Shown: positions 13,810-57,930 of the stretch, one piece after another
Numbering within the stretch: the first letter of the stretch is position 1
Layout: every line of letters begins with the position of its first letter
Assembly (NCBI RefSeq): GCF_003315515.1
Contig: NZ_QNRY01000022.1
Coordinates: 1 to 57,930 of the forward strand
DNA length: 57,930 nucleotides
Source of the DNA: Brenneria salicis ATCC 15712 = DSM 30166
GTDB lineage: Bacteria > Pseudomonadota > Gammaproteobacteria > Enterobacterales > Enterobacteriaceae
Reading direction: 5' to 3'
The notes under the pieces: generated by a model
The model's input: the letters and a program-made list of their open reading frames with translations, nothing else
Told to the model about the DNA's origin: nothing
Database searches by the model: none
Made by a program: the position numbers and the translations under genes

Positions 13810-14931
13810 TTATTTATCGACCAGATTAACGGTGATGCGCTGGCTTTCATCCATCATGGAGGCTTTGGCCCGAATTTTGGCCTCCAGTTGATCAATCATC
13901 TGCTCGTTGTCAAAACGCTCTTTCTGGCGAACGCCATCTTCGTAAAAACCGCTCTTATTATGGCCGCCGGTGACGCCAATGGTGGAAACCAGCGCTTCGC
14001 CCGGCCCGTTGACCACACAGCCGATGATCGACACATCCATCGGCGTGATGATATCTTCCAGTCGCTGCTCCAGCGCATTGACGGTGCCAATCACATCAAA
14101 TTCCTGACGGGAACAGGTTGGACAGGCAATAAAGTTTATACCGCGGGAACGAATACGCAGTGATTTTAGAATATCAAAACCAACTTTCACTTCTTCGATG
14201 GGATCGGCAGCCAGCGAGATACGCAGCGTGTCGCCAATACCTTCCGACAGCAACAAGCCGAGGCCGATAGCGGATTTGACCGCGCCGCTGCGTGCGCCGC
14301 CCGCTTCCGTGATCCCCAGATGCAACGGTTGATCGATACGCGCGGCCAACAGACGATAAGATTCCACCGCCAGAAACACATCCGATGCTTTCACGCTGAC
14401 TTTGAATTGATCAAAGTTGAGGCGATCCAAAATATCAACATGCCGCATCGCGGATTCAAGCAACGCCTGCGGCGTCGGCTCGCCATACTTTTCCTGCAAA
14501 TCCTTTTCCAGCGAACCGCCGTTCACACCGATACGGATCGGCATGTTTTTATCCCGCGCGCAATCAACAACAGAACGGATACGCTCTTCATTGCCGATAT
14601 TACCGGGGTTGATTCGCAGACAGTCAACGCCGTACTCCGCCACCTTCAGGGCGATGCGGTAGTCAAAATGAATATCCGCCACCAGAGGGACATTCACACG
14701 CTGCTTGATCAGTTTGAATGCTTCCGCCGCTTCCATGGTTGGCACGGAGACGCGGACAATATCAACGCCAACACGTTCCAGTGACTTGATTTGGCCAACG
14801 GTCGCTTCAACATCGGTGGTTCGGGTGTTGGTCATGGATTGCACCGCGATCGGCGCGCCATCACCAATAGGCACCTTGCCGACGTAAATCCGTTTTGATT
14901 TGCGACGGGTTATGGGTGCTGCGTTATGCAT
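13810..14931 (-). CDS. ispG: 4-hydroxy-3-methylbut-2-enyl diphosphate synthase
   Basis: A [4Fe-4S] enzyme of the MEP isoprenoid pathway converting MEcPP to HMBPP with flavodoxin as electron donor. It has 373 residues. The N-terminal TIM barrel contains [13 protein letters not shown] and the C-terminal Fe-S domain carries [10 protein letters not shown] and [10 protein letters not shown], supplying the three cluster cysteines. Its need for a [4Fe-4S] cluster is notable because the isc operon in this window is missing most of its genes. It lies 40 bp after rodZ in a pilW-rodZ-ispG run. Confidence 0.97.
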
Positions 14932-16823: not shown

Positions 16824-18020
16824 TCAGACCGTTTTAACCGCGATAGGTTCACCCGCCATTTTTTTCTTCAGCGTGCGCTTGGTTCTGTCCACCACTTCGC
16901 CGGCAAGCTGACCGCAGGCGGCATCAATATCATCGCCACGGGTTTTGCGCACAATCGTGGTAAAGCCATACTCCATCAGCACCTTGGAGAAGCGATCGAC
17001 ACGGCTATTCGAACTGCGGCCATAGGGCGCGCCCGGGAACGGGTTCCACGGGATCAGGTTAATCTTGCATGGGGTGTCTTTCAGACGTTGTGCTAACTGA
17101 TGGGCATGTTCCGTGCCGTCGTTGATATGATCCAGCATCACGTACTCCACCGTCACGCGTCCCTGATTGGCATTGGATTTCGCCAGATAGCGCCGTACTG
17201 CGCTCAGGAATGTTTCGATGTTGTATTTCTTATTCAGCGGCATGATTTCGTTACGGATTTCATCGTTTGGCGCGTGCAGGGAGATCGCCAGCGCGACGTC
17301 GATCATGTCGCCCAGTTTGTCCAGCGCCGGCACCACCCCGGATGTCGACAGCGTGACGCGACGTTTCGACAGACCAAAACCGAAATCATCCAGCATGATT
17401 TCCATCGCCGGCACCACGTTGGTCAGGTTGAGTAAGGGTTCGCCCATACCCATCATCACCACGTTGGTGATAGGCCGCTGACCGGTGACTTTGAACGCGC
17501 CGATGATTTTGGCCGCCCGCCATACCTGACCGATGATTTCAGATACCCGCAGGTTGCGGTTAAACCCCTGCTGCGCGGTGGAACAGAATTTACACTCCAG
17601 CGCGCAGCCGACCTGGGAAGAGACACACAGCGTGGCGCGATCTTCTTCGGGAATATAGACCGTCTCGACACGCTGACCGCCGACCAAAATCGCCCACTTG
17701 ATGGTGCCGTCAGATGAGCGTTGTTCGTCCACCACTTCGGGCGCACGGATCTCGGCGACTTCCTGTAACTTGCCGCGAAAGGCTTTGTTGATATCCGTCA
17801 TCTGGGTGAAATCATCACAACAATAGTGATAAATCCACTTCATCACCTGATCGGCGCGGAAAGGTTTCTCGCCAAGCGAGGCGAAAAACTCCCGCATTTG
17901 CTGACGGTTAAGATCCAGCAGATTGACTTTTCCCGCACTGGTTTTGGCAGGTTGAGAGGCGACGGCAGACGCCGGTGAAAATTCGGACACGATTTGCTCA
18001 GACACGATTTGTTCAGACAT
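16824..18020 (-). CDS. rlmN: 23S rRNA/tRNA adenine-C2 methyltransferase RlmN
   Basis: A radical-SAM enzyme that methylates A2503 of 23S rRNA and A37 of some tRNAs. It has 398 residues (E. coli 384). The radical-SAM cluster motif is CALECKFC; the mechanistic cysteines lie in ISLHAPND-adjacent segments and in [11 protein letters not shown]. The N-terminal domain matches [14 protein letters not shown]. The protein begins [13 protein letters not shown], a short tandem duplication that accounts for part of the extra length. It is first in a run with pilW and depends on Fe-S supply. Confidence 0.96.
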
Positions 18021-23736: not shown

Positions 23737-24531
23737 TCAGGCGTGACTGGTATCCTTGAAATCGCGCAGGAAACTACCCCATTTGCGCTCATAAAACGGC
23801 GTGGTGTGTTTGATCAGGTAGTGACTGATGCCAGGCTCATTTTCATTAACCACACAAAGATCAACCGGACGCTCATCCGCTGACGTATCGCTGGCGACGC
23901 TGCCTGCGGCGCGGATAATTTCCTCCACCTGTTGATCGGCTTCAATCCCGATGAGCAGATGCGGCGCTTTTTCATCCGGCTCCTGGATTTGCGCCAGAAA
24001 TGCGCGGCGCACATGCCGATACTTGGTGAACAACTGGGTAAGAGAATCAATCATTTGCACCGGCATTTCGGCGGGCTGACCAATCACCACTTGAGTATCT
24101 TCCTCAACAATGCGCTGCTCGACCAATCCGTTACCTTCGCCGGACAGCATGTGTTGCACCTCCTGTGGCAAAAACTCTTTTCCATACGGCAGTTTGGGGT
24201 TGAGAAACAAGGTGGCGCCCAGTGTAATTTCAAACAGTGAACGGGCTGGTAATGCCAGAAAGGATTGTTCTTCGGTAATCACTTGCTGCAAGGCGGCCAG
24301 CGACGAGAAAAAAGGAATGGCGGAAGAACCGTCGGCCTTTTCCCAATGCTGAATCTGTACGTTGCCGCCCGCATGCAGGATCTTTTCACCACGCGCTTCA
24401 CTTTCATCGCTGCTGCCTAAGACGAAGACAGTGGCTTCCATTAATTCGCTGAAAAACTCAGGCCGATGCGCAGGCTCGGTTGTGGCCATTACCAGCACCT
24501 CTTCCAGTTTATTTTGTGGTGAAAAATCCAT
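23737..24531 (-). CDS. sseB: SseB family protein (serine sensitivity enhancing)
   Basis: A 264-residue cytosolic protein matching E. coli SseB (258) across its length: the N-terminal TEPAHRPEFF, HWEKADGSSAIPFFSSL, the QMIDSLTQLFTKYR region, HLLIGIEADQQVEEII and the C-terminal FYERKWGSFLRDFK. Its biochemical role is not established; in E. coli overexpression alters serine sensitivity. The ATG at 24531 follows GAGGATAGGT; an in-frame TTG four codons upstream is not needed. It is separated from pepB by a terminator. Confidence 0.93.
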   Translation of the reverse strand: MDFSPQNKLEEVLVMATTEPAHRPEFFSELMEATVFVLGSSDESEARGEKILHAGGNVQIQHWEKADGSSAIPFFSSLAALQQVITEEQSFLALPARSLFEITLGATLFLNPKLPYGKEFLPQEVQHMLSGEGNGLVEQRIVEEDTQVVIGQPAEMPVQMIDSLTQLFTKYRHVRRAFLAQIQEPDEKAPHLLIGIEADQQVEEIIRAAGSVASDTSADERPVDLCVVNENEPGISHYLIKHTTPFYERKWGSFLRDFKDTSHA

Positions 24532-24554
24532 ACCTATCCTCAACCCTTGATTGC

Positions 24555-24622: not shown

Positions 24623-25918
24623 CTATTCAGCTTTGCTCAACAGCAAATTCGCCAGCGTCCGCACGCCCAGCCCGGTGGCGCCCGGTGACCATTGCTCCAC
24701 AGCGCCCTTGCGGTAGGTGGCGGAACAGTCGATGTGCAGCCAGCCTTGCTGATAATTCTTCACAAAATGCGATAAAAACGCCGCTGCCGTACTCGCGCCC
24801 GCACTGTGCGCGGCCCCGGCGACGTTATTCAAATCCGCAAAATTGGAAGGTAGTTGACCGCGGTGGAACGCTTCCAGCGGCAGACGCCAGAATGGTTCGT
24901 CTTCCTGTTGCGCGCTGGCCTGTAATGCCGCCGCCAGTTCATCATCAAAACTGAATAGCGCGTGATAATCATTACCCAAAGCGGTTTTTGCCGCACCGGT
25001 CAGCGTCGCGCAATCAATGATCCACTGCGGATGCTGTTCAGACGCGTCAATCAGTCCATCGGCCAGCACCAGACGCCCTTCCGCATCTGTGTTCATGACT
25101 TCAACGCTCTTGCCGTTGCGGTAACGGATAATGTCGCCCAGCTTGAACGCGTTACCGCTGACCATATTATCCGCACAACACAGATACAACTTCACCCGCT
25201 GCTTCAACCCACGCGAGGCGGCCAGCGCCAGCGCGCCCACCACGGTCGCCGCGCCGCCCATGTCCGATTTCATGGAATCCATAAAGCCGCTGGGTTTCAG
25301 GCTGTAACCCCCGGTATCGAAGGTGATGCCCTTGCCCACCAGACAGGCGAACACCGGCGCATCGGGATTGCCGGTCGGGTTGTAGTCCAGCGCCAACAGG
25401 ACCGGCGCACGATCGGAACCCCGGCCAACGGTATAAATACCGGCGTAGTTCTGCTCACGCAGATCATCGCCTTTGGTGATGCGATAACTAACCGCATCGC
25501 AATCAACCTCACACAACAGATCGATCGCACGGGTCGCCAGTTGCTCAGGCCCGAGATCTTCCGCCGGCAGGTTGATGGTATCGCGCACCCAGTCAACAAT
25601 CTTCAGACGGTCATCCAGTTCTTTCCGGTCAGCCTCATTCAGTTCCGCCCATTCCACCGTCCGCTGGCCTTTCGGCGCGCGATAGCCTTGCCAGAATGCC
25701 CAACTGTTCGCCAGATCCCAACCAACACCGGCCAGTTTGACGTGCCTGATGCCCTGACCGTCAATTTTACGGGCCGCACGTTGGATGGTCGCCAACGGAG
25801 ATTTCCCATTCAAGTGAATGGTAAAACCGTTTTCATGCATACTTAATGACGCATTCTCTCCCCAGCGCGCATCCGCAGGTTGGGTGGAAAGTGAAATCAG
25901 CATCGCTTCGTTTTTCAT
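24623..25918 (-). CDS. pepB: Aminopeptidase B (M17 family)
   Basis: A cytosolic metal-dependent aminopeptidase of 431 residues (E. coli 427). The metal-site motifs are [25 protein letters not shown] and the signature [14 protein letters not shown]. The C-terminal catalytic domain also carries [17 protein letters not shown] in part. The start [20 protein letters not shown] aligns with the E. coli start. In E. coli pepB directly follows iscX; here it follows a 55-codon iscU/iscX remnant and a terminator. Confidence 0.96.
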
Positions 25919-25969: not shown

Positions 25970-26000
25970 AAAAATAGAGCGGGCCGCCCAGAGCAGCCCG
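25970..26000 (-). terminator. Terminator closing the shortened isc operon
   Basis: CGGGCCGC (25980-25987) pairs with GCAGCCCG (25993-26000), with one G-T pair. On the minus strand CTCTATTTTT follows. It sits 13 bases beyond the stop of the iscU/iscX remnant and probably belonged to the original iscX end. Confidence 0.7.
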
Positions 26001-26012
26001 TTATAGCAATGA

Positions 26013-26180
26013 CTATTCCGCCTCGTTGAGCGGTTCGCCTTTTACCCACTCCGTCACCAGCGAACTGGACGTAATGGCGGAACCGCAGTCATAAGTCTTG
26101 AAGCGGGCGTCTTCGATAATCCCGGCGTCGTTAACCTTAATCTGTAACTTCATCACATCGCCGCAGGCCGGCGCGCCCAT
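26013..26180 (-). pseudogene. iscU: iscU remnant fused to iscX tail
   Basis: This 55-codon reading frame, [12 protein letters not shown] onward, is the middle of the Fe-S scaffold IscU (about residues 34-85 of 128), followed by the last codons of iscX (ending NEAE, as IscX ends DEAE). The first two scaffold cysteines (ACGDVM and DCGSAI) remain, but the third cysteine and the LPPVK/HscA-binding segment are gone. The invariant glycine before the second cysteine is now aspartate (TYDCGSA for TYGCGSA). It overlaps the iscS end in another frame. It cannot be a working scaffold. The in-between genes iscA, hscB, hscA and fdx are absent. Confidence 0.9.
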
Positions 26181-27379
26181 TCGACGCTGCTGATATCCAC
26201 GCCTTGCTTGAACATTTCCCACAGCGGAGAAAGCTCGCGCAGACGGCCAATGGATTTACGCACCAACTCGATGGTGTAGTCGATCTCTTCTTCAGTGGTA
26301 AAACGTCCCAGAGAGAAACGGATCGAACTATGCGCCAGTTCATCGTTCATACCCAACGCGCGTAACACATAGGAGGGTTCAAGACTGGCGGAGGTACAGG
26401 CGGAACCGGACGAAACGGCCAGATCCTTGAGCGCCATAATCAGCGACTCGCCTTCAACATAGTTGAAGCTGACGTTGAGGATATTCGGCGCGCCCTGTTC
26501 AATATCACCGTTCAGATAGACTTCTTCAATATCATTGATACCGTGCCACAGACGATCGCGCAATGCGCGCAGGCGCACCACCTCGGCGTCCATTTCTTCT
26601 TTGGCGATACGGTAAGCTTCGCCCATGCCGACGATTTGATGAACAGGCAAGGTGCCGGAGCGCATACCGCGCTCGTGGCCGCCGCCGTGCATCTGCGCCT
26701 CGATACGAATACGGGGGTTGCGGCGAACGTACAGTGCGCCGATGCCCTTCGGACCATAAATTTTATGGCCGGAGAAAGACATCAGATCCACTTTTAACTG
26801 GCTCAGATCGATGGGCAACTTACCCACGCTCTGGGTGGCATCGACATGAAAGATGATCCCGCGGCCACGGCACATTTCGCCGATGCTCGCGATGTCCTGC
26901 ACCACGCCGATTTCATTGTTCACATGCATGATGGAAACCAGAATGGTGTCATCACGCATTGCGGCTTGCAGTTCTTTCAGGTCGATAATACCGTTGCGTT
27001 GCGGCGCAAGATAGGTGACGTCGAACCCTTCGCGCTCTAACTGGCGGCAGCTATCCAGCACGGCTTTGTGTTCTGTCTTGCTGGTGATGATGTGTTTGCC
27101 TTTCTTCTGATAGAAGTTGGCGGCGCCTTTAATGGCCAGATTATCCGACTCTGTCGCGCCGGAGGTAAAGACAATCTCGCGCGGGTCGGCCCCCACCAGT
27201 TCGGCAATCTGGTTACGGGCGATATCGACGGCTTCTTCCGCCTGCCAGCCGAAACGGTGGGAACGGGAAGCGGGGTTGCCGAAAGTGCCGTCCAGGGTCA
27301 GGCATTGCATCATTTTTTCAGCGACCCGCGGATCAACCGGCGTCGTCGCTGAATAATCCAGATAAATCGGTAACTTCAT
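26153..27379 (-). CDS. iscS: Cysteine desulfurase IscS with altered C-terminus
   Basis: A PLP enzyme that takes sulfur from cysteine and passes it to Fe-S scaffolds, TusA (tRNA s2U), ThiI and others. It has 408 residues (E. coli 404). The PLP lysine lies in [12 protein letters not shown] and the persulfide cysteine in [14 protein letters not shown], both intact. The normal end EWAHH is replaced by EWARRPAAM, because the last codons are iscU DNA read in another frame. The IscS C-terminal tail is known to contact IscU, so the change is consistent with loss of that partner. The gene follows iscR with a 176-bp gap. Catalysis should be unaffected. Confidence 0.95.
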
Positions 27380-27555
27380 TGCTCATAAACTCCCTACATC
27401 ACTTCAAAACGTGCAAAGCGTCTTGTTTTATTAGCAGACTGTCTATCCGCAGCCTTTCGGTTAAACGCCATGCGCTGTTGAAAATCAATGACAAAAAATA
27501 ACTGGCGGGAGGCTTGATTTGGCGGATCGAACGATCCGCCGACGCGAATGAATGA

Positions 27556-28050
27556 TCAGGCGCGCAGATTGACGTTGATCGTGTCCTGAATCCGACCGTT
27601 GGCGGTGCGACGGGTATCGGTGTCCTGTCTGTCCGCCACATCCAGCACTTCTTTATTGTTGACCAGTTCATCCAACGTAATGTTGTTCAGAAAGTCAGTA
27701 ATTCGGTCGCTCAAATCACGCCACAGCGTATGGGTCAGGCAACGATCGCCGCCCTGACAACTTTCACGTCCCTGACAACGCGTGGCGTCGACAGATTCGT
27801 CTACCGCCGAAATCACCATGCCCACCGCGATTTCATCAGCGCTTTTGCCCAACAGATAACCGCCGCCCGGACCACGCACGCTGGCGACCAGACCGTTTTT
27901 ACGCAGGCGTGAAAACAATTGTTCCAGATAGGAGAGTGAAATTCCCTGACGTTCGGAAATATCAGCCAGCGGAACCGGGCCTTCTTTAGAATGCAGCGCC
28001 ACATCAAGCATGGCGGTAACAGCATAACGGCCTTTAGATGTCAGTCTCAT
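27556..28050 (-). CDS. iscR: Fe-S cluster regulator IscR
   Basis: An Rrf2-family repressor/activator carrying a [2Fe-2S] cluster that senses Fe-S status. It has 164 residues. The winged helix includes [21 protein letters not shown], and the three cluster cysteines lie in [19 protein letters not shown]. The start [14 protein letters not shown] at 28050 matches the family; a 24-codon upstream extension is rejected. It heads the operon, with a type 1 IscR site upstream. With scaffold genes missing, its cluster would have to be supplied by another system. It may persist mainly as a regulator of suf and other genes, which is inference. Confidence 0.95.
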
Positions 28051-28120
28051 GATAGTGATACCTGTAGATAAAACATGTATTATGAAGACATGTATTAGCA
28101 GAACATAGCCTGAGTCTGAC

Positions 28121-28145
28121 ATTCCCGAGTGTTACAGTCAACTAT
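28121..28145 (-). promoter_or_regulatory. Type 1 IscR operator at the iscR promoter
   Basis: On the minus strand the 25-bp site runs from ATAGTTGACTG to CACTCGGGAAT and fits the type 1 consensus (ATASYYGACTRWWWYAGTCRRSTAT, given from memory) at all but about two positions. It overlaps a TTGACT that can serve as -35. A second direct repeat, ACATGTATTA at 28074-28083 and 28089-28098, lies between it and the gene. Confidence 0.75.
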
Positions 28146-28180
28146 TTAACCAAGTAATTCACTCAAGTATTATTCATCCA

Positions 28181-28909
28181 TTATGCATCATTATTCTTCT
28201 TCTGAATCGAACTCAGTATCCCGCGCAGGATATTCAGTTCCTGACTTTCCGGCTTGGCTCGCGTAAACAGCCGACGCAGTTTGTTCATCACCTGCCCCTG
28301 ATGCGCCTGTCGGATAAAACCGGTTTCCATCAATGTCTTTTCAAGGTGCTGATAAAAACGCTCCAGATCATCCACCAGCGGATAAGGCGTCTCGCCGTGG
28401 ACTTCCTTACCGACGGCAAGACGATCCAGATGGGCGACGCGCACTTCATAAGCCAGAATCTGCACGGCCATCGCCAGATTTAACGAACTGTATTCAGGGT
28501 TGGCCGGGATAGCGACATGATAATGGCATTTCTGTAATTCATCATTCGTCAAACCGACGCGCTCACGACCGAAAACCAGCGCCACCGGCGCATGTTCGGC
28601 TTCCTGCGCGGCGCGCACGCCGCATTCGCGCGGTTCCAGCATCGGCCAGGGTAAGGTTCGGGAGCGGGCGCTGGTTCCCACCACCAGACTACACCCTTCA
28701 AGCGCCTGATCCAGCGTGTCCACCAGCGCGGCGTCGCCAATAACGTCACTGGCGCCCGCCGCCAGAGCGATGGCCTGGGAATCGGGTTTTACCAGCGGAT
28801 TAACCAGATACAGCTTGCTTAATCCCATGGTTTTCATTGCTCTGGCAACGGAACCCATGTTGCCGGTGTGGGATGTTTCAACCAGAACAATGCGAATATT
28901 GTGTAACAT
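28181..28909 (-). CDS. trmJ: tRNA (cytidine/uridine-2'-O)-methyltransferase TrmJ
   Basis: A SPOUT methyltransferase that makes Cm32/Um32 in tRNA. It has 242 residues. The three SpoU motifs are visible: [27 protein letters not shown] and [16 protein letters not shown]. The extended C-terminal helix ([20 protein letters not shown] and after) is typical of TrmJ. It lies between the iscR promoter and the divergent suhB, as in E. coli. Confidence 0.95.
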
Positions 28910-29028: not shown

Positions 29029-29832
29029 ATGCATCCGATGCTCAACATCGCTATACGCGCTGCGCGTAAAGGCGGTAATTTAATTGCTAAAAATTACGAA
29101 ACCCCTGACGCCGTGGAAGCCAGTCAAAAAGGCAGCAACGATTTTGTCACCAACGTCGATCGGGATGCAGAGCGTCTGATCATTGAAGTCATCCGTAAGT
29201 CTTACCCGCAACACACCATTATTGGTGAAGAGTGTGGTGAGTTGGTTGGTGAAGATCAGGCTGTACAATGGGTTATCGATCCACTGGATGGCACCGCCAA
29301 CTTCATTAAACGCCTCCCCCATTTCGCTGTTTCCATTGCTGTGCGCCTCAAAGGCCGCACGGAAGTTGCCGTTGTTTATGATCCGATGCGCAACGAACTG
29401 TTCACCGCCACCCGTGGTCAAGGGGCGCAGTTGAACGGTTATCGTCTGCGCAGCAGCAACGCACGCGATCTGGATGGCACCGTTCTGGCTACCGGTTTCC
29501 CATTCAAAGCGAAGCAACATGCCAAAAGCTATATCAATATTGTCGCCGCGCTGTTTACTCAGTGCGCGGATTTCCGTCGCACCGGTTCCGCGGCGCTTGA
29601 TCTGGCCTATGTCGCTGCCGGTCGTGTTGACGGGTTCTTTGAAATCGGTCTGAAACCCTGGGATTTCGCCTGCGGCGAACTGCTGGTGCGTGAAGCCGGC
29701 GGCGTCGTGACCGATTTTGTCGGCGGCCATAATTACCTCACCTCGGGTAATCTGGTGGCGGGTAACCCACGCGTCGTGAAATGTATGCTGGCAACCCTGC
29801 GTGATGAACTGAGCGATGCGCTGAAACGCTGA
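29029..29832 (+). CDS. suhB: Inositol-1-monophosphatase / ribosome biogenesis factor SuhB
   Basis: A Mg-dependent inositol monophosphatase that in E. coli also joins the Nus/antitermination complex on rRNA operons. It has 267 residues, equal to E. coli. The metal-binding motifs are IGEECGE, WVIDPLDGTANF and PWDFACGELLVREAGG; the alanine usually found in WDFAAG is cysteine here. The start MHPMLNIAIRAARKGGN at 29029 is used; an in-frame upstream reading overlaps trmJ and is rejected. A strong terminator follows. Confidence 0.96.
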   Translation: MHPMLNIAIRAARKGGNLIAKNYETPDAVEASQKGSNDFVTNVDRDAERLIIEVIRKSYPQHTIIGEECGELVGEDQAVQWVIDPLDGTANFIKRLPHFAVSIAVRLKGRTEVAVVYDPMRNELFTATRGQGAQLNGYRLRSSNARDLDGTVLATGFPFKAKQHAKSYINIVAALFTQCADFRRTGSAALDLAYVAAGRVDGFFEIGLKPWDFACGELLVREAGGVVTDFVGGHNYLTSGNLVAGNPRVVKCMLATLRDELSDALKR

Positions 29833-52798: not shown

Positions 52799-55700
52799 TC
52801 AGCTTTCCGCATGTTCCGGTTTGCTGATCAAACTCTCAAGCGACGGCAGCGCGCCATTATAGTTATCAAGCGTAATGGATACCGCGACCGTACCGCCGTT
52901 ATCCGCGGTAAAATTACCTTCCGTACTGACTTCGATGGTTGGCGAACCGTCGTTACCCTGAATGCGAATGTAACGGCTGATGTCGGTTCCCTCTTCAAGT
53001 TCACCGACCAGATCGCTCAAATCGATCCGGTCGCCTTCGCTGGCGTTGAAATCCTTGATTACATCATGGCCGGTGTCGCCAGACTGCCATTTAAAGGTAT
53101 CCGCCCCCGAACCGCCGGTAAGGATATTATCGCCTTTACCGCCTAGCAGAATATCGTTGCCCTGACCGCCAAACAATTGGTCATTGCCGCTGCCGCCATG
53201 CAGTTCATCATTGCCTGCGCTGCCAAAATAGATGGTGGACGCCTTACTGGTATTGCCCTCGATATCGGTCACCTGCATGCTGATCGATTTGGCGTCACTG
53301 CCGGATGTGGTGAGGGCTAACTGCGACAGGAAGCTGTTCCAGTCGCTGATGCTTTCACCCGCGCTATCCCTGGACGTTATCGTCAACACATCGCCATCGT
53401 CTTGATGCGCAACAGTAAACAACTCATTATCCGGCAACGATATTTTATCGTCTGCGCCCAGACCGTCGGCCTTGATGACCACCTCTTTCAGATCCAGAGA
53501 ATCCGCATCGGCGATGGTTACCTGCGCGTTGAACGTCGTGGCGACATCATCCTGCGGAAGCGTGGTGATATCTCCCGCACCGATGAGCTTGAAGGAGCCT
53601 ATCTGGATATCATCCATTATGTTGGCGTAATTATCCAGCGGGTTGCATTCAACAGCCAGTTCACCGCTGCCATTTGTCGGCAACACATCATCCGGCAGCG
53701 AAATCTGAATAACGCTGAACTTGTCATCCAGATAATCAGCATCCGTGCGTTTGGCCGTATCCTGATAGGTTTTCGCCCAGGTTTCCAACGCCGCGACATC
53801 TTGCGCGCCGTAGGTCACGCCATCCAGCACGAAGGTGACGCCATCATGCAAAACTTCAACCGAGGCGTTCAACGCATCATCCGGGAAGTAGTCAACCCAT
53901 TGACCATTCTCGAACTCGCCGTCTGTCAGCCAGTTATAATTAGCCGTATCCGGCGTGGTAATCTTCAACAGCGCAATGCCATTGAAAGAAATCACCACCT
54001 GTAATGGCGTGCCATTCGCCCCGCCATTACCAGAAATACCATTATTCCAGCCCAGTTCCATCTGGATAACCGAACCGGCAGTCAAGCCATCAACCTGCTG
54101 CCAGACTTTCGGCAGTTCCCCGGACGGCAGACCGCTTTGCGCGATACGTTGACCGAGATAATCATAATCGGTCGCAATCATGCCTTTATCTTTATCCGCC
54201 AGCGAGAAGAAAGCGCCCTTCCAGCTTGTCGGCTCGTTGGTATTCCATTGCCCATTCCAGCCATCACCCGCTCCGCCATTCAGATCGCCGTTGTCGGAAA
54301 TTTCTTGCACCTCGCCGACAAGCTCAATGACCTCCGGCGCCTGACCAGTTTCAGGAGCATTCGCTTCACCTTTGAGCGTAATCACCACATCCGCGGTTGC
54401 CGCGTCACCATCGCTATCTTTGACGGTGTAAGAGAATTTCATTTCCGGTTGATCGCCCACCGCCATACTATCTCTGGCTTCACGGCTCATTTCAAACGTG
54501 TAAGAACCATCCGATTTCCCGGTAAATGTCCCGTATTCGTTCACAATGACATAGGTGCCGTCGGCTTGTTGCGTGGCATTATTCCAAATCACGCCTTCCA
54601 CCCCGGCGCCATCGGCGCCAATCTGGTAAGCGTCGCCGTCAATCTGTCCCTCGATTCTGGGCATATCATCCACCGCAGAGATGGTGGCATAAAGATCAAA
54701 CGCATTGGAGGCGTTTTCCCATGTATATACCTTGGAAACCGGCGTACCGTATTCGCCGTTCTTGAAGCCGTCGATCGTGAACTCGAAAGTTCGGTCACCT
54801 ACGGTAAACGTCTTCGTCAGGGTAGCCTGATCAATTTCAACAATATCGCGCTGGGCTTCAGCGGAAAGTTCTCTTTGCTCCCAATGACCCGGCCACCACC
54901 ACTTTCCCGGCACCCACACATTTTCCGTATTGGCCGTTTCCGTATGCGTCAATTTTATCGTATGGGTGATTTCGTGGTTTTCACCATCAATCATGACGTT
55001 AAAATTCACCACCAAATCAGTCGAGTCGAGCACCCCGCCCGTTACCGGATAGTTAAGATGCGTAAACGCCCCTAACTTAAAGGTGGAACCGATCAAACTC
55101 TCTGAACTGCTATTACGATAATCTTCATTATCGTAATAATCATATCCCGAACGCCCGGAGCCGGTGCCATTCCCCCAACGCAGTTGCTCGTAGTAGCTAT
55201 CGGCGCTATCCGTATCCGTGGAACTACCGTTAGCATCTCTTTGATAGTTGGCATTCACAAACCCGCCCTGAAGACCGGTGACGATCACCTCGCTCACAGG
55301 CACCGATAGCGTGTTTTCAACATTCTGAGCAACCGGCGCATCGTCTTCAACCACTACTGTTAGCGTCGTATTGCTGGTGTTGCCATATTGATCGGCAACC
55401 TTAACGCCCACATTGAAGTCAAACGTATCCTCTTCCGTCGTATTCGAATGATCGATGGAACGGTGTAATTCCACGTTGTATTCACCCGAATCGTCGATGG
55501 AGAGGGTGACGACTTTACCTGCCGTCGTCGAGCCGATGAGCGTTTTGCCATCCTGAGACAACGCCCAGGAAACAGATTGCCCCTCAGACGTCAGCGCCGG
55601 CGCATTCGCGTCAGGCACAACCAGCGTTACCGTGGTCGGGTGCGGGTGCTCAACCGTTATTGTACCGCTGCTGAAGCGTGAATCCGTTGTATCATTATCG

Positions 55701-57930
55701 CCACGGGTATCAGGCGCACCGCCGGACAAGCCTTCTTCAGAGACATGGGTCTTACCCGCCGTGAGCCTCGGTTCTTGATCATTGTCGATCACCGTACTTG
55801 AGGCGGTATCCTGAGAACTTATCGCCAACGCCTCAAATGCGCCGTTCGGATCCGTCACCCCAGTGATCGTCACGACCAGTTGTTCGTCAGACTCCCTAAC
55901 CTGATCATCCACGGCGTCTACCACAAATGTCGTAGATGAGCCGCCGGTAATCGTGACGCTGGTTGGGCGGCCCGTGGTATCGCTGTTATTCGCCGCGTCG
56001 CCGCTCCAACTCAGCGAGACATCGACGGACTTGCCTGCCGGCAGTTCCACGGCTTTACCTGTGCTATCCACCAGTTTTACCGTGTAATTCAGTGCGCCGC
56101 CTTCAGATACCATCGGCTGATCCACACTGATGACCGCATAAACGGTGTCATCCGAGTCCGGCACGACTTCATCGGTGATTGTCAGCGTCACGTCACTGCC
56201 TTTGGTCAGATTTTCGAACACCTGGGTTCCCGAGCCCTGTTCGGTGATCCTATCGATACCTACCGTCTGCCGACGCTCGCCGACAAAAACATTATCATCA
56301 ACCGTCTTCGTTACCGTACCGAGCGTCGAGCCTGCCGCGATCGTGACCGTCTTGCCATTAGACAGAGCAATCATCAAACCACCGTGATCACTCAAATCAG
56401 CACCCTGTGGACCGGACAATTCAACCGTGTAGGTGACCTCGCCCCCTTCCTCGACCGGATTTGGCGACACGCTCAACACCGCCGTCACCATATCAACGGT
56501 ATCGACCACATTTGCTTCAGCGGGCGCTCCCAATGTCAGGTTCTCGAACAATGTGCCGTCAGCGGACTGCGCATCCTGCAATGCCACCGTCAACGATGCG
56601 CCATCCTGATATACGTCATCGCCCTGAGCCGCGCGGCTATAGATCATCTCAGTCGTGCCTTGGGCGATAGTGACGGTCTTACCGCCGTCCAACGTGACGA
56701 CCACATCACGATCCAGTTGCTTATTAAGGGAAACGGTAAAGGTCTGCGTTTCATTCTCGGCGAACTCAGGCTTATTGGACTGAATCGACACAATAAGCGC
56801 ATCGCCCTGGTTTGGATCGCCCGGATTTCCCGGCGTCCCCGGTTCATCCGCTACCGTGGTCGTCACCGGATTATCGTTCAGCGTCAACTTCTCAAACGCC
56901 TCACCGCCGCTCACCGACACTAATTGATTCATCACAGCCGGTTGACCGCCGACAAACACATCGTCTTTCGCCACCAGCGTCACCGAACCGCTCGCGCTAT
57001 TCGCCGGCACCGTCACTATTGTGCCGTCGGTCAGCGTAAACGTCAGCGCAGCGTGGTTGCTTATCGGCAAACCAGCCTGAGTGCTTAGCGTCACGGAATA
57101 CGTGAAACTTTCGCCTTCCGCCACTGTATTCTTATCCACCGTCAGCGTCGCAATACCCTCATTCACCGTATCGGTTACCGTCACCGTGGCGGTATCGCTG
57201 CTGTCCAGTTGCTCGAAGTTATGCGCGCCGCTGTCGGTCACACTGACCGTATAGCTTTCACCGTCCTGATAGACATCATCGCCCTGCACCGCAAAGGCGG
57301 TTGAGGTGCCAACCGCACTGTTGGCGGCAAAGGTGATGGTCGCGCCATTGCTGAGCGTAACGGTAAATTCGCGGTCGGTCGGCTGGCTTAATGTCGCACC
57401 GATGGTGGCGGTGCCGCTGCCTTCTGTCACCGTGATGTCGCCCAGTGTTAGTGTGGTGGCGTCGCTGTTATCCACCACCGTGGTGGTGGTTGTGCTGCTG
57501 GTATCCAGCGCTTCATAGTTGCCGCCAGACGTTTCTTTGATGCCGATGGTCAGCGCGTCATCGCCTTGCCGGTAGCTATCATCAGCACGTGACTCAACCT
57601 GAACCGTGCTGGTACGTTCACCGACCGGAATGGTGAGGGTCTGGTCATTACTCAGTGTAATGACCAGCGGGCTGCCGGTGACCGGCGTGCCTACCGTGGC
57701 GGTGACGGTAAATGCGCCGCCTTCAGTCACCTGATTGTCCGAGCTCAGGGTGATAGCGGTGGTGTCTTCCGTATCCGTCACGGTGACGGTCGCGGTATCG
57801 CTGCTGTCCAGTTGCTCGAAGTTATGTTCACCGGCATCGACGACACTCACTGCATAGCTTTCACCGTCCTGATAGACATCATCGCCTTGTACCGCAAACG
57901 CCGTTGACGTCGCGGTGGCACTGTTGGCGG
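52799..57930 (-). CDS. Giant RTX adhesin, LapA/BapA-like, C-terminal part
   Basis: Only the last 1710 or so residues are in the window; the frame stays open to the right edge, so the ATG at 57850 is internal. The visible part begins with tandem Calx-beta/Ig-like repeats of about 100 residues (recurring VTVTDT, VQGDDVYQDGESY and LTVDKNTVAEGESF-like segments). Larger domains follow, including a tryptophan-rich segment VWVPGKWWWPGHW near 54880-54921. Near the end are RTX nonapeptides (GGSGNDQLFGGQGNDILLGG, at about 53093-53224). The last 100 residues (DVIKDFNASEGDRIDLSDL) form a typical type I secretion signal. It should be exported by a LapBCE-type system and held at the cell surface; the LapG cleavage site would lie in the missing N-terminus. 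No secretion genes are in the window. Confidence 0.93.
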   Translation of the reverse strand, partial: ANSATATSTAFAVQGDDVYQDGESYAVSVVDAGEHNFEQLDSSDTATVTVTDTEDTTAITLSSDNQVTEGGAFTVTATVGTPVTGSPLVITLSNDQTLTIPVGERTSTVQVESRADDSYRQGDDALTIGIKETSGGNYEALDTSSTTTTTVVDNSDATTLTLGDITVTEGSGTATIGATLSQPTDREFTVTLSNGATITFAANSAVGTSTAFAVQGDDVYQDGESYTVSVTDSGAHNFEQLDSSDTATVTVTDTVNEGIATLTVDKNTVAEGESFTYSVTLSTQAGLPISNHAALTFTLTDGTIVTVPANSASGSVTLVAKDDVFVGGQPAVMNQLVSVSGGEAFEKLTLNDNPVTTTVADEPGTPGNPGDPNQGDALIVSIQSNKPEFAENETQTFTVSLNKQLDRDVVVTLDGGKTVTIAQGTTEMIYSRAAQGDDVYQDGASLTVALQDAQSADGTLFENLTLGAPAEANVVDTVDMVTAVLSVSPNPVEEGGEVTYTVELSGPQGADLSDHGGLMIALSNGKTVTIAAGSTLGTVTKTVDDNVFVGERRQTVGIDRITEQGSGTQVFENLTKGSDVTLTITDEVVPDSDDTVYAVISVDQPMVSEGGALNYTVKLVDSTGKAVELPAGKSVDVSLSWSGDAANNSDTTGRPTSVTITGGSSTTFVVDAVDDQVRESDEQLVVTITGVTDPNGAFEALAISSQDTASSTVIDNDQEPRLTAGKTHVSEEGLSGGAPDTRGDNDTTDSRFSSGTITVEHPHPTTVTLVVPDANAPALTSEGQSVSWALSQDGKTLIGSTTAGKVVTLSIDDSGEYNVELHRSIDHSNTTEEDTFDFNVGVKVADQYGNTSNTTLTVVVEDDAPVAQNVENTLSVPVSEVIVTGLQGGFVNANYQRDANGSSTDTDSADSYYEQLRWGNGTGSGRSGYDYYDNEDYRNSSSESLIGSTFKLGAFTHLNYPVTGGVLDSTDLVVNFNVMIDGENHEITHTIKLTHTETANTENVWVPGKWWWPGHWEQRELSAEAQRDIVEIDQATLTKTFTVGDRTFEFTIDGFKNGEYGTPVSKVYTWENASNAFDLYATISAVDDMPRIEGQIDGDAYQIGADGAGVEGVIWNNATQQADGTYVIVNEYGTFTGKSDGSYTFEMSREARDSMAVGDQPEMKFSYTVKDSDGDAATADVVITLKGEANAPETGQAPEVIELVGEVQEISDNGDLNGGAGDGWNGQWNTNEPTSWKGAFFSLADKDKGMIATDYDYLGQRIAQSGLPSGELPKVWQQVDGLTAGSVIQMELGWNNGISGNGGANGTPLQVVISFNGIALLKITTPDTANYNWLTDGEFENGQWVDYFPDDALNASVEVLHDGVTFVLDGVTYGAQDVAALETWAKTYQDTAKRTDADYLDDKFSVIQISLPDDVLPTNGSGELAVECNPLDNYANIMDDIQIGSFKLIGAGDITTLPQDDVATTFNAQVTIADADSLDLKEVVIKADGLGADDKISLPDNELFTVAHQDDGDVLTITSRDSAGESISDWNSFLSQLALTTSGSDAKSISMQVTDIEGNTSKASTIYFGSAGNDELHGGSGNDQLFGGQGNDILLGGKGDNILTGGSGADTFKWQSGDTGHDVIKDFNASEGDRIDLSDLVGELEEGTDISRYIRIQGNDGSPTIEVSTEGNFTADNGGTVAVSITLDNYNGALPSLESLISKPEHAES
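57181..57930. repeat. 603-bp-period DNA repeat inside the adhesin gene
   Basis: The stretch 57181-57327 recurs at 57784-57930 with only about 20 differences in 147 bases, an exact 603-bp (201-codon) period equal to two Ig-like domains. Identical runs of more than 25 bases occur. More copies are expected beyond the window edge, and such repeats are prone to expansion, contraction and assembly collapse. Confidence 0.85.

Follow-up and report, generated by a model that had tools for sequence, protein, structure and literature searches.

The window analysed here, a stretch of 57,930 nucleotides, is contig C22 of the 3.9-Mb draft genome of Brenneria salicis (genome G000; 93 contigs, completeness score 100%). 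It contains an isc locus in which iscR and iscS are followed downstream by a remnant of mid-IscU, 54 codons long and closing with the last codons of IscX, and then by a hairpin and pepB (Table 1). In coding sense the remnant runs from 26177 to 26016 on the minus strand, with its stop codon at 26013-26015, and its frame matches only positions 30-83 of the 124 positions of the IscU profile (TIGR01999; 88.7 bits against a cut-off of 192.4). An earlier note on this DNA had described a frame of 55 codons after iscS, combined from the middle of IscU and the end of IscX and followed by a terminator and pepB within a conserved order of flanking genes. All of these points were borne out, the 55 codons being 54 plus the stop; pepB, sseB and trmJ were recognised by family match, and suhB, a name we assigned by eye, has orthologues at the same place in related genomes. 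The fold of the terminator-like hairpin is by itself not exceptional (z -1.36; 14 of 200 shuffles were equally stable). The three Cys and one His of the IscR motif are presumably cluster ligands, and the two sites in front of iscR were scored against a type-1 consensus. Two genes for Fe-S clients placed in the same window by the earlier note, ispG and rlmN, both matched their families above the cut-offs. Elsewhere in the window, an open frame of 1,683 aa (52799-57850) was observed, the first 60 residues of which resemble a repetitive surface protein.

Table 1. Features of the isc locus and selected genes in the window (coordinates refer to the window).
Feature	Position	Strand	Basis
ispG, Fe-S client, intact	13810..14931	-	NCBIfam NF001540, TIGR00612
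rlmN, Fe-S client, intact	16824..18020	-	NCBIfam NF008396
sseB	23737..24543	-	NCBIfam NF008624
pepB, next intact gene	24623..25918	-	NCBIfam NF003450
Terminator-like GC hairpin, then T run	25970..26000	-	sequence and RNA fold, -18.5 kcal/mol
iscU remnant, 54 codons + stop, other frame than iscS	26013..26177	-	TIGR01999, partial match
Deletion 2 junction (3,559 bp, 12-bp iscU/iscX repeat)	26015..26026	-	comparison with G003
Deletion 1 junction (133 bp, 7-bp repeat TGGGCGC)	26173..26179	-	comparison with G003
iscS, 408 aa, residues 1-402 98% identical to G003	26153..27379	-	NCBIfam NF010611, TIGR02006, above cut-off
iscR, intact, three Cys + one His motif	27556..28050	-	NCBIfam NF008110, TIGR02010, above cut-off
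Two IscR type-1-like sites 5' of iscR	28121-28145 and 28146-28170	-	23/25 and 20/25 consensus matches; same sites in G003
trmJ, flank	28181..28909	-	NCBIfam NF011694 equivalog
suhB	29029..29832	+	reading frame; orthologues at same place in relatives

The scar and its origin

The closest relative found, G003, belongs to the same genus, has an IscS that is 97% identical and carries the complete iscRSUA-hscBA-fdx-iscX operon. Compared with this genome, the iscU/iscX scar proposed in the earlier note is present, but it did not arise by a single event: two microhomology deletions of 133 bp and 3,559 bp account for it. The smaller deletion, between 7-bp TGGGCGC repeats, took the end of iscS with its stop codon and approximately the first 32 codons of iscU. 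Since the stop codon was taken, IscS of B. salicis now ends in ...EWARRPAAM with six new C-terminal residues, compared to ...EWAHH in the intact form. The larger deletion, between 12-bp ACGAAGCGGAAT repeats, fuses mid-iscU to the last codons of iscX and removed the rest of iscU, iscA, hscB, hscA, fdx and most of iscX; the comparison thus confirms the absence of iscA, hscB, hscA and fdx from the locus. Flanks and remaining genes have the same order as around the iscRSUA-hscBA-fdx-iscX operon of E. coli, the order also seen in G003 and the named loci, but the stretch from mid-iscU through the end of iscX is missing in B. salicis, as is the border between iscS and iscU.

Over its 54 codons, the remnant differs from G003 by eight synonymous and four missense changes, three of the latter (G62D, A68T and K80E) falling on sites invariant in all 94 full IscU proteins compared. 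In codons 1-402 of the neighbouring iscS, 41 synonymous and 10 missense changes were counted. As the missense changes hit invariant IscU residues, the scar reads as a recent, decaying remnant and not as misassembled intact sequence. The exact 12-bp iscU/iscX repeat is present in G003, but the longest word shared between the two genes in six other intact congeners is only 8-10 bp, which led us to reject a genus-wide deletion hotspot.

Other Fe-S machinery and frataxin

The genome of B. salicis contains a complete sufABCDSE set, and all six genes scored above the NCBIfam cut-offs. Between B. salicis and G003, sufB differs by 57 synonymous and three missense codons, and the 500 bp 5' of suf are 91% identical in a gap-free alignment. 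Profile searches over all contigs of the assembly revealed no further full copy of IscU, IscA, HscB or Fdx; HscB (PF07743) and Fdx (TIGR02007) gave zero matches, and PF01521 matched at three places, SufA, ErpA and NfuA, none of them IscA. At the isc locus itself, hscA was not found. The only other place with a NifU_N match is a full nif-type NifU of 305 aa, located beside NifS on contig C4. The eight genus-mates searched all carry NifU and NifS as well, seven of them alongside an intact IscU, and hence SUF is likely to be what replaces ISC for general cluster assembly. The suggestion of the earlier note that assembly had moved to SUF or to a second ISC is supported in its first half by the intact sufABCDSE, and a search of the assembly for a second ISC set was negative; the NIF-type scaffold that it also considered does exist, but is not specific to the loss. 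A TusA-family gene was found as well, and the PLP-lysine, the active loop and the TusA-site residues of IscS are all intact. As a separate observation, csdA is split over two reading frames at codon 193 (contig C7, 43712-44952; L157), which reflects either a pseudogene or a sequencing error.

The frataxin gene cyaY is reduced to a fragment of 51 positions (contig C12, 27371-28287, L243; fragment match at 27750-27896). It was broken by a microhomology deletion, with alignment diagonals differing by 83 bp, which breaks the frame, and with a 5-base overlap; the gene is intact in G003. In 40 genomes searched, full-length CyaY was present in 15 of 15 IscU-positive genomes, compared to 0 of 25 lost genomes, two of which (G078 and G131) have completeness values of only 85% and 81%; no cyaY was found in the congener G005. 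Roche et al. 2015 discuss the co-occurrence of CyaY with IscU (PMC4440780, in the portion available), and the coupling seen here agrees with that earlier work. Binding of CyaY to SufS, with a sharp drop in SufSE activity, is described in the available part of another study (PMC11446229). Given this inhibition, CyaY might be unwelcome once SUF acts alone; its loss could also be a matter of plain relaxed selection. A TusA-family gene was found in all 40 genomes. Together with TusA contacts that stay conserved in the losses, this fits the idea put forward in the earlier note, in which IscS is retained as the sulfur source for tRNA thiolation and cofactors.

Loss of IscU across the family

Among 392 family genomes, 183 have both NifU_N and SUF, 95 NifU_N only, 108 SUF only and six neither, so that SUF is present in 108 of the 114 genomes without a NifU_N match. 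Since NifU_N matches take in nif-type NifU and fragments, these numbers under-count the loss of IscU: B. salicis and G005, G164, G241 and G384 are among the 278 NifU_N positives, yet iscU is missing at their isc loci, and G325, judged by score, is probably another such case. Conversely, one of the 108 SUF-only genomes, G382, probably reflects an assembly gap, because it lacks an IscS orthologue too and three other sampled genomes of its genus have IscU; it was left out of further analyses. A search by IscS similarity, which retains the closest IscS and thus under-samples losses, gave 80 named loci; iscU is present in 79 of them and missing from one, a MAG.

The deletion of B. salicis is absent from G003, and the congener G005, a single contig of 4.0 Mb, lost the same block with a different scar, in which codons 2-18 of iscU and parts of iscX survive; this loss is independent of that in B. 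salicis. A tree was calculated from four flanking proteins (TrmJ, PepB, SuhB and SseB), which took in 26 of the 80 named loci; G063, G141, G103 and G093 were left out by choice and G170 for missing flanking genes. In our reading of this tree, losses would fall in at least six places: B. salicis (sister to G003, support 100), G005, G140 (next to Prodigiosinella, support 78), a five-genome clade near Serratia/Yersinia (placement support 54), the Sodalis group and the Erwiniaceae, whose internal support is mostly weak (58-62). If no regain is allowed and every weak node is taken at face value, about 13 losses would be counted; the 25 older losses are thus read as about 6 to 13 events and not as independent ones. 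G258, a relative of Sodalis, keeps the whole isc operon.

The order iscR-iscS-pepB is intact in 23 of the 27 lost loci read, and likewise the C-x5-C-x5-C-x2-H motif of IscR is kept in 23 of 27. In the flanks of the four remaining loci, from genomes of 1.6-3.3 Mb, the motif was not found, and IscR and/or PepB were not found beside iscS. A promoter scan of 17 loci, 10 of them lost, revealed type-1-like IscR sites 5' of iscR in 10 of the 10 lost loci.

Some further observations were made along the way. Downstream of iscS in Winslowiella toletana (G142; L200) lies a decayed iscX remnant with stops, the stretch from iscU to fdx being gone. The isc locus occurs twice in G008, on contigs C6 and C7, with identical scores, pointing to duplication or assembly overlap. 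Both G005 (C1:1592556-1594024, L152) and G020 (C199:14588-16068) have an extra short NifU-like protein beside a desulfurase that is 36% like IscS, a pair which in G005 lies about 6 kb from suf. G024, a 2.2-Mb genome of another family, has a NifU-type frame of 306 aa next to a desulfurase (C11, 17154-19248; L153); SUF, HscB and ordinary IscU were not found in a search of this genome, which perhaps makes it a NIF-only enterobacterium.

What happens to IscS once IscU is gone? IscU sits on IscS residues 309-316, 347 and 379-391, IscS lacking residues 376-404 does not bind IscU, and TusA sits on W45, E49, D52, R55, R220 and R237 (PMC2854127, as far as available). IscS is 404 aa long in 93 of 94 IscU-positive loci and 405 aa in one, compared to 382-408 aa in the 27 lost loci. 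Measured against the consensus of the 94 IscU-positive loci, identity of the tail (residues 384-404) is 0.863 in these loci and 0.168 in the 25 older losses, with 0.76 in B. salicis and 0.71 in G005; the corresponding values are 0.998, 0.987, 1.00 and 1.00 for the TusA residues, and 0.905, 0.810, 0.96 and 0.93 for residues 1-375. The tail is eroded in every loss group taken separately: identity is 0.43 for G140, four clades have values of 0.10, 0.09, 0.39 and 0.19, and five smaller genomes pooled as a mixed set have 0.07. Some of this tail loss may be a direct result of the deletion.

All 94 IscU-positive loci have both R112 and K101, whereas R112 is retained in only three and K101 in four of the 25 older losses. 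In the accessible text of PMC3750173, an R112E/R116E mutant of IscS showed weaker Fdx binding, a triple mutation of R220, R223 and R225 abolished it, and K101E/K105E IscS still bound Fdx; R112/R116 were likewise tested for ACP binding (PMC13343975, available portion). As K101E/K105E left Fdx binding in place, K101 is an unexplained residue linked to ISC. Residues of the main Fdx/CyaY site mostly survive in the older losses (R220 in 25 of 25, R223 in 15 and R225 in 20), and identity of the IscU-contact helix 309-316 falls from 0.952 to 0.830, a drop similar to that of residues 1-375; the corresponding values are 1.00 and 0.76 for E347, and 1.00 and 0.94 for the active loop 325-333. Hence the tail and R112 stand out, and not every interface does, so that we dropped the idea that the whole Fdx patch was lost and confine the claim to R112 and the tail. 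Fisher tests on sites with 95% or higher conservation among intact loci, applied to 10 of the 27 lost genomes, showed changes concentrated at the listed interface residues in nine of the 10 (p values here are unadjusted and ignore shared ancestry); G005, for instance, has 6 of 24 interface sites changed compared to 6 of 219 elsewhere (p = 3e-4). For B. salicis there was no significant excess among conserved sites (1 of 24 compared to 2 of 219; unadjusted p = 0.27), and the decay stage of IscS consequently rests on the other genomes.

A proposed route of ISC loss

Could the full isc operon really be present, the contig having collapsed through misassembly or a strain mixture? A draft of 93 contigs leaves some room for this, but both separate junctions lie within one contig, the complete IscU, IscA, HscB and Fdx that such a collapse would hide turned up on no contig, and the remnant is mutated at invariant residues. 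As the single-contig genome of G005 independently shows a different scar of the same block, we rejected this explanation, which strikes us as very improbable. To a similar degree we doubt that the short frame encodes a functional mini-scaffold or a new small protein. It is open, has an ATG at the junction and retains Cys37 and Cys63 of IscU; yet it lacks the IscU N-terminus and everything past about residue 86, carries missense changes at invariant residues including the Gly preceding Cys63, and is out of frame with iscS, and G005 retains another part of iscU.

The nif cluster offers a replacement of its own, since its NifU and NifS, intact in B. salicis and also present in G005 with its independent loss, might now serve as housekeeping scaffold instead of IscU. 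However, NifU is found in eight of eight genus-mates searched, seven of them keeping IscU, and because it is not specific to the loss we consider such a takeover unlikely. Outside the genus, SUF is present in 24 of 24 lost genomes with an IscS orthologue, compared to a further NifS-like desulfurase (44-49% identical to IscS) in only four of the 24 (G138, G164, G241 and G384). A far more serious contender, to which we concede somewhat less than an even chance, is ordinary genome reduction, in which isc and cyaY decayed neutrally, with nothing adaptive or ordered about their loss. The 3.9-Mb genome of B. salicis lies at the lower end of its eight genus-mates (3.9-5.4 Mb), csdA is also split between frames, and by hand count 77 of the 108 SUF-only genomes are under 4.0 Mb; the other 31, among them possibly the assembly gap of G382, nevertheless reach 4.0 Mb or more, the same two genes were retained in 23 of 27 lost loci, and the IscR motif and promoter sites are conserved where examined.

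With considerable confidence, we propose a recent, lineage-specific collapse of isc by two deletions, with SUF now acting as the general system, IscS and IscR retained, and frataxin and the IscS tail lost later. The two microhomology deletions seen at the locus removed scaffold, A-type carrier, chaperones, ferredoxin and iscX. SUF, already present in the intact relative, would then have become the general Fe-S assembly system, since no other complete set was found apart from NifU/NifS, which occur genus-wide and could share the load. IscS would continue to act as sulfur hub in TusA-type routes, and IscR would keep a regulatory role, presumably over suf and its own gene, with its cluster loaded by SUF. 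The pattern across genomes suggests that frataxin would subsequently be lost, removing an inhibitor of SufSE, and that IscS would shed the tail that docks IscU and, in most cases, R112, with the TusA site conserved; order and cause of these two steps are our proposal.

SUF-only life with a lone IscS is already known, and B. salicis is a further example. Mycobacterium tuberculosis, according to the portion available of PMC10848736, has an ISC system reduced to iscS and a complete SUF system, as in B. salicis; its operon is, however, not the enterobacterial one, and B. salicis keeps iscR and an iscU/iscX scar and lost the rest recently. The insect symbiont Moranella endobia resembles B. salicis in its complete suf operon and iscS, with no iscA and with iscU named only for its partner in the available text of PMC3620526, but it is a symbiont nested in another symbiont, compared to a genome of 3.9 Mb here. 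Closer at hand, Sodalis praecaptivus (G012), W. toletana and Candidatus Erwinia impunctatus (G137) share iscR-iscS followed by pepB and the presence of SUF, and CyaY was not found in them; they differ in representing older losses with an eroded IscS tail and no iscU match between iscS and pepB. The three species names rest on 12 kb of full identity to plasmids that equal the contigs in length. Among the matches listed from open-licence papers, a weak basis for a negative, there was no description of isc loss in Brenneria, Pantoea/Erwinia, Sodalis or Rahnella; the available parts of PMC10946135 and PMC12388186 name iscU for a Variovorax genome and iscU with sufBCD for strain L7, respectively, and have no bearing on isc loss.

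The present analysis adds the recency of the loss, the finding that it recurred independently, and a series of graded stages on which the response of IscS and frataxin can be tested. Possession of both ISC and SUF is a trait for which E. coli and its relatives serve as the textbook example. We hypothesise, with our confidence evenly poised, that Enterobacterales lose the ISC core repeatedly by a common route: iscUA-hscBA-fdx-iscX would go and iscR and iscS stay, frataxin would be discarded as a throttle on SufSE, and IscS would turn into a dedicated sulfur relay, losing its tail and R112 with the TusA site constant. On such a common route B. salicis, with its tail nearly intact and cyaY freshly broken, would be the youngest stage, and G005, where no cyaY was found and both the scar and the IscS interface decay, the next. 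The series from B. salicis over G005 to the older losses makes it possible to tell IscS surfaces used by IscU alone from those used by other sulfur acceptors, and it allows testing whether frataxin works only with ISC or harms SUF. For E. coli, it predicts that tRNA thiolation should survive removal of the IscS tail combined with a change of R112, and that cyaY should turn into a burden once isc is gone. Repeated loss accompanied by an eroded IscS docking tail in relatives thus provides a natural experiment on the dismantling of Fe-S machines.
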